64,000 nt of DNA, from the NCBI RefSeq assembly GCF_900177045.1, contig NZ_LT841358.1:1451396-1515395 (forward strand), written 5' to 3'. Both the position numbers and the translations under genes were made by a program. Below, piece after piece: positions 33,395-54,498 of the stretch (its first letter is position 1; every line of letters begins with the position of its first letter). The stretch is from Candidatus Nitrosotalea okcheonensis. Its GTDB lineage: Archaea; Thermoproteota; Nitrososphaeria; Nitrososphaerales; Nitrosopumilaceae. The notes beneath the pieces were generated by a model, which did not search any database, was not told the DNA's origin, and worked only from the letters and a program-made list of their open reading frames with translations.

Positions 33395-33509
33395 TAGTGG
33401 AACTCAGTTGTGGCATCTATAATGATTTTCGGTAACATCATTGACAAATTTTAGTGGTATATTGTAATTACCTTGTATTTTTAAGGGAATTTCTCTTCTT
33501 GGTTGCACC

Positions 33510-34682
33510 GTGAAAGTAACAAAATGCGTATGGCAGTACCATAATAAAAAAAACGAATTTGAACCAGTTTTTGATTATTTCAAGTATTGTGCTAATGAAG
33601 CAATTCGAATTGGTATTGAAAAGAACCTAACATCAAAATTTAATCTACATTATCAGTTGTATCATATACTTCGCTTGGATTCTCAATTTCATTGTAAATA
33701 TGTATATGGTGCACTAGAATGTGCTGCTTCAAAGCTTAAGTTATACAAAAAAATAATTAAGAAAAAACCTGATGCTAAAAAACCACATGTTTCAACAAAT
33801 CATTTGATAATGGATAACATGTCATATAAAATTGATCAAGACATAATTAGAATCCCGACAGAACCTGAAAAATATGTATTCATTAAATTAACAAAATATG
33901 TGTTAGAAAAGATAAGAAATATGAAACTTGGTCAAATCACAATAACTATTGACAAACTGATTATCTCATACTCCAAAGAAATTCCTGTACATAAATCAAC
34001 TAATTTTCTTGGAATAGATAGAAACTTGAACAATCTCACAACATGTGATTCTTCTGGAGATTACATTATCCATGATCTAGCAAACGCCCAAAAAATAATC
34101 ACATTATATGGTATAGTGAAAAGCAAATTCAAACGTAATGATGTAAGAATAAGGAAAAGAATATTTCAAAAATGGTAGATTACAAAGAAATAGAGTAAAT
34201 AATATCCTGAATTGTACTTCAAAGAATATTACATCTAAAAATGCTGGAATCATAATGGAGAACCTAAAAGGCATTCGTAAAATATACAAAAAGGGAATGG
34301 TCAAGGAACAAAATATAGAGGAAAGATGAACTCTTGGTCATTCTATGAACTGCAACGACAAATTGAGTACAAAGCAAGATGGCTTGGTTTGCCGGTAAAT
34401 TATGTAAAAGCAGGTGGAACAAGTACAAAGTGTGCAATATGTGGGTCAAAGCTAGTACCCGAAGAGCACCGAAAGATGTTTTGTTCAATCTGCAAGACAA
34501 GTGTTGATAGAGATATCAACGCTGCTCGTAACATCTTGCTTAGAGGCACCAAGGTTGTGCCAGACGGGATCACAAGTGAAGCGGTGATGGCGGAATCTGG
34601 AATAATTTCTGAAATTTTTCCAATAATACGTCGAGTCGATGTGATCAAATCAATTGTTGAAACAAAAATCTCAACAACTTGA
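33510..34682 (+). pseudogene. tnpB: decayed TnpB (IS200/IS605-type OrfB)
   Basis: One TnpB reading split over three frames. The first part (33510-34178) has FLGIDRNLNNLTT with the first RuvC aspartate and ends at a stop after KRIFQKW. The reading then continues in another frame (about 34172-34329, GRLQRNRVNNILNC...IIMENLKGIRKIYKKG) with the catalytic Glu. A further one-base shift near 34300 leads to NSWSFYELQRQI and the zinc ribbon CAICGSKL...CSICK with SVDRDINAA. All three RuvC residues survive, so the decay is recent. No TnpA and no clear inverted ends were found. It resembles the intact TnpB at 53220 but is not a copy of it. Confidence 0.88.
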
Positions 34683-53106: not shown

Positions 53107-53180
53107 GCTTGACAAATGGGCAGTATACAGTATCTCAAACTGTAAGTGCAGCTTCTGTTTAGTGGACAGAGATCCTTAAT

Positions 53181-53207
53181 TCGGTTCTGTCGGTTGTCGG
53201 GTGATAA
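53181..53207 (+). repeat. left terminal inverted repeat of the TnpB element
   Basis: Starts TCGGTTCTGTCGG and ends GGTGATAA. Reverse-complementary to 54429-54456 apart from one missing G and one G/A difference. Confidence 0.8.
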
Positions 53208-53219
53208 ATAATTTGGACA

Positions 53220-54425
53220 TCATTTCTTCCCTACAATCAACTTGCTTCCATCCACTCGCAGGATTACTGGCTGAAAGTTTTCCAGATTCCCGTTCACCGC
53301 TTCAACTAAAAGCCCTCTAGGATGGCAAAACCTACTCCACCCCTTGTAAGCAATGTTCATGGATGCTACTACATCCCTGTCAATTGATTTCTTACAATTA
53401 ATGCACAACAATTTTCGAAGTTGAAACTTGTCCTCTTGGAGTCTATCTCCGCATATTGGACAAAGCTTGCTTGTGCGTTTAGGATCTACGAATTGTACTT
53501 GAATCCCTTCCCATTCTGCCTTGTATGTAATCTGCCTTTGCAGTTCATAGAACGACCACGAGTTTAATCTTCGGCGATACTTGTTTCCCTGACCATTTCC
53601 AGTCTTGTATAGCTTACGGATTCCTTTTAGATCTTCCATAACTATGATTGATTTTGATTCTACGGCTCGTTGTACGATATCCTTTGATATTTTGTGTAGA
53701 TGTTGCTGGATACGTCTTGACCTCCTATTTCCCAGTCTTTGCTGGAATGACTTTTTCTTTCTGATGTCCAATCTTCTAAATGATGCTATAACATGGCTTG
53801 TGTTTTCCTTTATTGAAAGTAACTTGTTGGTCTTGTACATTATTGATTGCTTACCATCAAATGCAGTGATGTTTCTGAGGTTTCTGTCTATACCAATAAC
53901 GTTTTCTGGAATGATTTGCTCCATTTCCTTTCTGACTGAGATTGATATCGAATTAGGTGTTATCGTAAATGGCCTCGGTTCTACATTTTCTAGTTGTGAT
54001 ATTGTATAGTCATTTAATCTTACTAGAAACTTGTCATGGTTTGATATTGGAATTGACAATAACATGCCAATTATCTTGAAACCATAGCAAGAAACAAGAT
54101 ATGGTTTTGATACATATGGAGATTTTGGAGTTCTTCCCTTCTTGATGTCTTTTTTCATCAATGCTAACCTTCCAGATGCCTGAGATATTGCAGTTAACTT
54201 GTAATATGATAGTATTTTGTAATTGCTCAGTTCCTTGTATGATAATATCGATAGTCTTTTCATGGTTGAACAATTGTTTGCTATTCCAATTCTGATACAG
54301 TCATTTACCATTTGCCTGAATGTTTCCATCATTGATAATAGTTCAGGTGGTGATTGGTATGATTGTTTTATACATTTGGTTGCCAATAATGTCCAACATA
54401 GTTGTGTTTTTACATTATTTACCAT
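53220..54425 (-). CDS. tnpB: intact TnpB (RNA-guided nuclease-type OrfB)
   Basis: 401 residues, full length. The RuvC residues are present: Asp in IGIDRNLRNITAF, Glu in IIVMEDLKGIR, and Asp in SIDRDVVASMN. The zinc ribbon is CPICGDRL...CINCKKS. The bridge region FQQRLGNRRSRRIQQ is basic. TnpB proteins cut DNA guided by an RNA copied from the element's 3' end; this one appears catalytically complete. It is similar to, but clearly different from, the decayed TnpB at 33510. The companion guide RNA would overlap about 53181-53350 on the minus strand. Confidence 0.93.
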   Translation of the reverse strand: MVNNVKTQLCWTLLATKCIKQSYQSPPELLSMMETFRQMVNDCIRIGIANNCSTMKRLSILSYKELSNYKILSYYKLTAISQASGRLALMKKDIKKGRTPKSPYVSKPYLVSCYGFKIIGMLLSIPISNHDKFLVRLNDYTISQLENVEPRPFTITPNSISISVRKEMEQIIPENVIGIDRNLRNITAFDGKQSIMYKTNKLLSIKENTSHVIASFRRLDIRKKKSFQQRLGNRRSRRIQQHLHKISKDIVQRAVESKSIIVMEDLKGIRKLYKTGNGQGNKYRRRLNSWSFYELQRQITYKAEWEGIQVQFVDPKRTSKLCPICGDRLQEDKFQLRKLLCINCKKSIDRDVVASMNIAYKGWSRFCHPRGLLVEAVNGNLENFQPVILRVDGSKLIVGKK

Positions 54426-54428
54426 TTG

Positions 54429-54456
54429 TTATCACTCGACAACCCGACAGAACCGA
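54429..54456 (+). repeat. right terminal inverted repeat of the TnpB element
   Basis: Starts TTATCACTCGACAACC and ends AGAACCGA. On the minus strand it is the 5' leader of TnpB and ends three bases before the ATG. Confidence 0.8.
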
Positions 54457-54498
54457 TTTACATAAAATTCATATAGATTTTTACCAGACCCAAAAGCG

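Follow-up and report, generated by a model that had tools for sequence, protein, structure and literature searches.

A tnpB cassette of Candidatus Nitrosotalea okcheonensis, best seen as a passenger of IS6-like transposons and inserted beside a predicted TnpB target motif

The genome of the ammonia-oxidizing archaeon Candidatus Nitrosotalea okcheonensis contains, within a stretch of 64,000 nucleotides (contig NZ_LT841358.1, positions 1,451,396 to 1,515,395, hereafter the window), a 1272-bp element made of a tnpB gene, with a guide RNA in its 3' part, enclosed by terminal inverted repeats (TIRs). Sequence comparisons indicate that this element is best regarded as a cassette that IS6-like transposons carry as a passenger rather than as an IS605 element, and that it would be moved in trans. 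Insertions of its relatives lie next to a one-sided T-A/G motif, which we predict to be part of the target-adjacent motif (TAM) recognized by TnpB. It seems likely that the TIR cassette is inserted widely by a transposase, and that an insertion persists or spreads when its guide enables cutting of the empty allele. The features of the window copy are collected in Table 1.

Table 1. Features of the tnpB element in the window (positions are those of the window)
Feature	Positions	Strand	Basis or remarks
Whole element, TIR - tnpB with 3' guide RNA - TIR	53183..54454	-	1272 bp; TIRs delimit the window copy and other copies; empty sites of other copies place the boundaries at the TIR ends
tnpB, 401 amino acids (aa)	53220..54425	-	Open reading frame call and profiles; RuvC residues D180, E264, D351
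Right-end (RE) TIR, tnpB 3' side	53183..53207	.	Sequence and repeat search
Left-end (LE) TIR, tnpB 5' side	54429..54454	.	Sequence and repeat search
Putative guide-RNA (omega RNA, or right-end element RNA) scaffold, minimal extent	53183..53343	-	Overlaps tnpB 3' end and stops at TIR end; synonymous conservation and covariation
Scaffold hairpin GGGGTGG-AGTA-GGTTTTG-CCATCCT	53319..53343	-	Covariation
Pseudoknot of loop GGTTTTG with CAGAACC, the last seven bases of the RE TIR	53332-53326 with 53189-53183	-	Pairing and covariation
Predicted guide GAATTAAGGATCTCTGTCCA	53163..53182	-	Right-hand duplication lost through adjacent deletion
8-bp target site, left copy (minus strand TGTAAATC)	54455..54462	-	Found without interruption in two relatives, L330 and L331
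Predicted TAM (minus strand TTTA)	54463..54466	-	Position and sequence rule; present in relatives without the element

The inverted repeats are the ends of a transposon

Read from the window sequence, the two repeats (GGTTCTGTCGG-TTGTCGGGTGATAA at 53183-53207 and GGTTCTGTCGGGTTGTCGAGTGATAA, the reverse of 54429-54454) are identical in 24 of 26 columns, with one gap and one mismatch. A preliminary description of the window had reported 27-bp repeats hugging tnpB; the repeats are real and their spacing, 3 bp ahead of the ATG and 12 bp past the stop, was correct, the element limits lying 2 bp too far out at either end. When an 18-nt core was searched for across the 1.97 Mb of the single-contig genome, allowing no more than 3 mismatches, 16 matches were obtained as against none for the reversed pattern serving as control, and all 16 lie at the ends of tnpB copies or of their remnants. 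About ten related tnpB copies are found in this genome, of which one is split by 1.1 kb; every copy whose ends can be recognized has TIRs, and the portions over which the closest of them can be aligned end at the inverted repeats. Outside the repeats, seven of the other copies show exact 8-bp target-site duplications and an eighth shows a 7-bp duplication, one base having been lost, as indicated by its relative in another genome.

The joined flanks of seven copies were then compared with 36 congeneric genomes, L031 being left out of the query. An uninterrupted empty site was present in one or more relatives for each of the seven (7/7); that of L027 is empty in some relatives and occupied at the same place in G003 and G006. 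The preliminary description had named empty sites in relatives as the means of defining ends and target, and those recovered place the ends at the TIRs and show the targets to be duplicated. The inverted repeats are transposon ends. Two objections foreseen in the same description do not apply: the boundaries of other copies coincide with the repeats, and host terminators, like chance repeats, are ruled out by the repeat search and by the empty sites, which assign the repeats to the element. At L031 (3587-5988), other DNA of about 1.1 kb interrupts the tnpB gene of an element of this family.

The encoded protein is a TnpB by its match to the NCBIfam guided_TnpB model (140.9 bits, cut-off 100), and profile matches to ISDra2 TnpB and Cas12f are found in the PDB. 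The catalytic D-E-D of the RuvC domain and the zinc-finger cysteines are invariant in 13 relatives. Profile, residues and guide-RNA scaffold together place the protein in the TnpB class of RNA-guided nucleases, for which cleavage next to a TAM is predicted. Because the relatives begin near residue 12-19 of the 401-aa frame, translation may start elsewhere than at the ATG at 54425. A second tnpB gene lies in the window at 33504-34661; it is distant (34% identity to the copy discussed here) and decayed, with five stops.

A probable IS6-like mobilizer rather than IS605 or IS607 machinery

Neither a Y1 transposase (PF01797) nor a serine recombinase (PF00239) was matched in the genome, so that neither IS200/IS605 nor IS607 machinery seems to be at hand. 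Membership in IS200/IS605, including IS1341, is rejected on account of the TIRs, the 8-bp duplications, the empty sites and the missing PF01797 match, and membership in IS607 on account of the missing PF00239 match and the presence of TIRs and duplications. The protein being a standard TnpB, one could still picture an ordinary IS1341/IS605-type element that lies between unrelated inverted repeats, but we regard this as extremely improbable: the repeats delimit copies throughout, no Y1 transposase was found in the genome, and the empty sites with their target-site duplications refute it.

Elements of 2.3-4.9 kb that encode an IS6-like DDE transposase occur in related genomes; their TIRs are of the GGTTCTGT type, and they are flanked by exact 8-bp duplications. 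The clearest of these transposase-bearing sister elements, L148 (4910 bp, TIR GGTTCTGTCGGGTTATCGAGACC), has a TIR identical over 23 nt to one tnpB-element end in G000 and to both ends in G020, and its transposase scores 129.1 bits against the NCBIfam IS6 cut-off of 125. By having a TIR in common with an IS6-transposase element, along with an 8-bp duplication, the tnpB element qualifies as an IS6-like non-autonomous derivative. The preliminary description had suspected a different transposition mode, a suspicion that agrees with the TIRs, the 8-bp duplications and the IS6-family DDE transposase of the sisters, no Y1 transposase or serine recombinase having been detected.

Other genes travel within such ends. 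The 4.9-kb element with the IS6-family transposase (L148:3722-8631) also encodes an 890-aa N6-adenine methyltransferase, Eco57I/PglX-like, which is a possible defence or modification passenger gene. In the genome of the window, a 2349-bp element (L159:476-2824) with TIRs identical over 20 nt, an exact 8-bp duplication and no transposase carries aldo-keto reductase-like and NAD-epimerase-like genes, that is, metabolic passengers. The IS6-like transposases of L035-L037 and L148 are 370-455 aa long and have a long N-terminal extension (by eye, possibly a SWIM-type zinc finger); in L035 and L037 a divergent gene reads like a ribbon-helix-helix protein. On viral contigs, no relative was confirmed.

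Insertions lie directly behind T-A/G

In the orientation of tnpB, 24 of 25 distinct insertions have T followed by A or G directly 5' of the upstream duplication (local background 0.135; P 2e-20), and 17 of the 25 have an additional T ahead of it. Among 30 upstream offsets scanned, the one adjacent to the duplication is the only one that stands out (22/23 as against at most 8, the final count being 24/25). Score thresholds were taken from mismatched-flank controls; five of the 25 insertions score at or below the top control value (24) and were kept by judgement for their exact or near-exact duplications, and many of the hosts compared are metagenome bins. In genomes added afterwards, which belong to other genera and families, all six new copies with TIRs and duplication that lie above the control threshold obey T-A/G, which brings the count to 30 of 31 insertions from many genera.

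For seven insertions, relatives already have the T-A/G at their empty sites, and a motif forming part of the element is thereby rejected. It therefore seems that T-A/G belongs to the target and acts like a TAM, which for this TnpB we predict from the insertion sites to be T-T-A/G.

DDE transposases often favour certain target bases, and T-A/G could in principle be the transposase's own preference, TnpB having no part in site choice or retention. This we hold to be improbable. Eighteen elements with TIRs and duplications but without tnpB, a control set drawn from mixed genomes, show T-A/G at 4 of their 36 ends, which is background (Fisher 8e-12). The motif is moreover one-sided and oriented with respect to tnpB, whereas one TIR can match the other perfectly over 20 nt, so that the transposase alone could not orient it. 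A symmetric preference is excluded by the lack of a mirrored signal, T-A/G occupying the corresponding position on the opposite side in 2 of 25 insertions. As the tnpB-less elements show no preference, the insertions found beside a TAM would be those that persisted, and the rule would be upheld by TnpB activity rather than by a motif-reading TnpA. A 567-bp miniature inverted-repeat transposable element (MITE; L234:957-1523), whose TIRs differ little from those of the tnpB elements and which has an 8-bp duplication and no detected tnpB, has a TAM-like motif on neither side.

A guide RNA predicted to end in the transposon end

The 3' end of tnpB appears to be overlapped by an RNA, as sequences that share a residue use the same codon for it in 86% of pairs over residues 361-380 of the open reading frame, compared with about 50% over residues 1-300. 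Within this region the hairpin GGGGTGG/CCATCCT, with its variants, covaries at 7 of 7 pairs; the hairpins were located by means of their stem pairing, so that stem percentages favour the structure. The pairing of the hairpin loop (GGTTY) with the last five bases of the element (RAACC) was not used in this placement. Over 384 cells, 95.8% are paired compared with 80.5% after shuffling, with a covariation of 0.474 compared with 0.187, and none of 500 shuffles reached either value. Changes occur on both sides of this pseudoknot, from U-A to C-G in five sequences and from G-C to U-A in one. Rfam gave no match for the guide RNA.

The TIR end is apparently both the substrate of the transposase and the end of the scaffold, since its last bases form the pseudoknot with the hairpin loop; and with the scaffold ending at the TIR end and the motif in its fixed register, the guide would start at the first duplicated base. 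The preliminary description had expected the guide-RNA end to lie inside a repeat, which is borne out by the pairing of the loop with CAGAACC. Its suggestion that a transcript could form a panhandle finds no support, the covariation marking a local hairpin and a pseudoknot between loop and repeat end. The guide-RNA design, which it had thought perhaps undescribed, is not new in principle, because hairpin and pseudoknot make up the kind of fold that known TnpB guide RNAs have.

Probable retention of insertions that can cut the empty allele

The ends, duplications and sister elements suggest a non-autonomous cassette on whose TIRs an IS6-like DDE transposase would act in trans, producing the 8-bp duplication. 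The 3' portion of the tnpB transcript would serve as guide RNA, its guide being transcribed from the flank. While the empty allele would present a TAM (T-A/G) followed by a match to the guide, and hence be cuttable, the occupied allele would be safe, the guide match there being preceded by the element end instead of a TAM. Repair of the cut empty allele from the occupied one would then keep the element in place or let it home.

Several observations weigh against this reading. One insertion, L198 (TGA), is an exception to the rule, and three elements with more distant TnpB clades (L054, L084 and L227) have IS6-like TIRs and exact 8-bp duplications without T-A/G, although their TnpBs may use another TAM. 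The tnpB-less control comes, as said above, from mixed genomes. Three IS6-like genes are present in the genome of the window, and none was found with a matching TIR pair. Finally, so nearly absolute a rule requires strong selection if insertion is unbiased.

This last point invites another explanation, in which TnpB and its RNA steer the IS6-like transposase: TnpB would hold TAM DNA without guide pairing, insertion would take place with one nick at the TAM edge, and the bias would reflect targeting rather than later selection. It would account for a rule followed in 30 of 31 cases, including three near-identical and apparently recent copies (L026-L028). The window copy offers a further case. 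Comparison with relatives shows that it has lost its right-hand duplication together with roughly 130-150 bp of neighbouring DNA, and in L330/L331 the DNA matching its present right-end flank follows GTA, again T-A; being a single case, this may be due to chance. Selection on working guides, on the other hand, predicts the identical zero-distance register, the sites are not guide-matched to other copies, and we know of no interaction between TnpB and a DDE transposase, all of which makes steering rather unlikely in our view. Were it true, each new insertion would automatically make a working self-homing guide, and transposition would be of a TnpB-assisted, TAM-directed DDE type.

Insertion directed by the guide of one copy to the site of another is unlikely, the guides being on average unrelated. 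The guide starts of nine copies have a mean likeness of 3.4/12 compared with 3.5/12 for shuffled ones (best pair 9/12), and guide-directed insertion between copies thus leaves no sign.

For retention of insertions by empty-allele cutting, which we favour, these elements are informative in a particular way. The role of TnpB for its transposon has usually been inferred where transposase and TnpB share a motif, so that nothing can be learned about TnpB from the motif found at an insertion. Here the transposase and the motif of TnpB appear uncoupled, tnpB-less elements being unbiased and tnpB insertions lying in register for cutting of the empty allele. They would thus constitute a natural experiment on whether TnpB drives retention or homing, as well as evidence at the scale of genomes that transposons are helped in their spread by such nucleases, and they yield a TAM prediction, a guide start and many natural pairs of guide and target.

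Comparison with known systems

Our search of the open literature in PMC turned up no prokaryotic TnpB carried by an element that has both TIRs and duplications, nor one in a DDE element. A thaumarchaeal survey lists IS200/IS605 and DDE families, and the parts of it consulted make no mention of such an arrangement (PMC6563490).

The closest likeness in protein and RNA is to IS200/IS605 and IS1341 elements of the ISDra2 type, which likewise have a TnpB nuclease, a guide RNA derived from the 3' end of tnpB and the right end, a pseudoknot near the guide, a TAM 5' of the target and a scaffold that ends at the transposon boundary (PMC8612924, PMC10097598, PMC10711439). In ISDra2 the pseudoknot joins bases -5 to -3 with -103 to -105 (PMC10097598), and homing has been proposed as the function of TnpB (PMC8612924). 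The elements described here differ in having TIRs, 8-bp duplications and no Y1 transposase, and in that the TAM lies outside the duplication and is not the transposase's own target motif.

As to their ends, they resemble the IS6 family and its transposase-less derivatives (MITEs and mobile insertion cassettes) in the GGTTCTGT with which the TIRs begin, the 8-bp duplication and the IS6-family transposase of a sister element. The cassette differs from these in encoding TnpB and no transposase, and its sisters in being multi-gene elements with transposases that bear a long extension at the N terminus. Fanzor genes in eukaryotic TIR transposons also combine a TnpB relative with a DDE-type element having TIRs and duplications, and there the duplication has been reported to be part of the guide-RNA scaffold (PMC3627910, PMC10711439). 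Here, by contrast, the 8-mer, which varies freely, must be guide, the TAM lies outside it, the host is a prokaryote and the mobilizer is IS6-like. These elements would thus show a route by which a prokaryotic DDE transposon can capture TnpB, the transposon end doubling as a pseudoknot strand of the guide RNA.

CRISPR-associated transposons (CAST) likewise combine a DDE transposon with an RNA-guided, Cas12-like protein; in the present case, however, the guides of other copies are not matched at the insertion sites, and nothing points to guide-directed insertion. The proposed logic is closer to that of homing endonuclease genes, in which the empty allele is cut and the element copied in by repair, with the difference that here the guide would be read from the flank, so that the target is re-programmed at each insertion.
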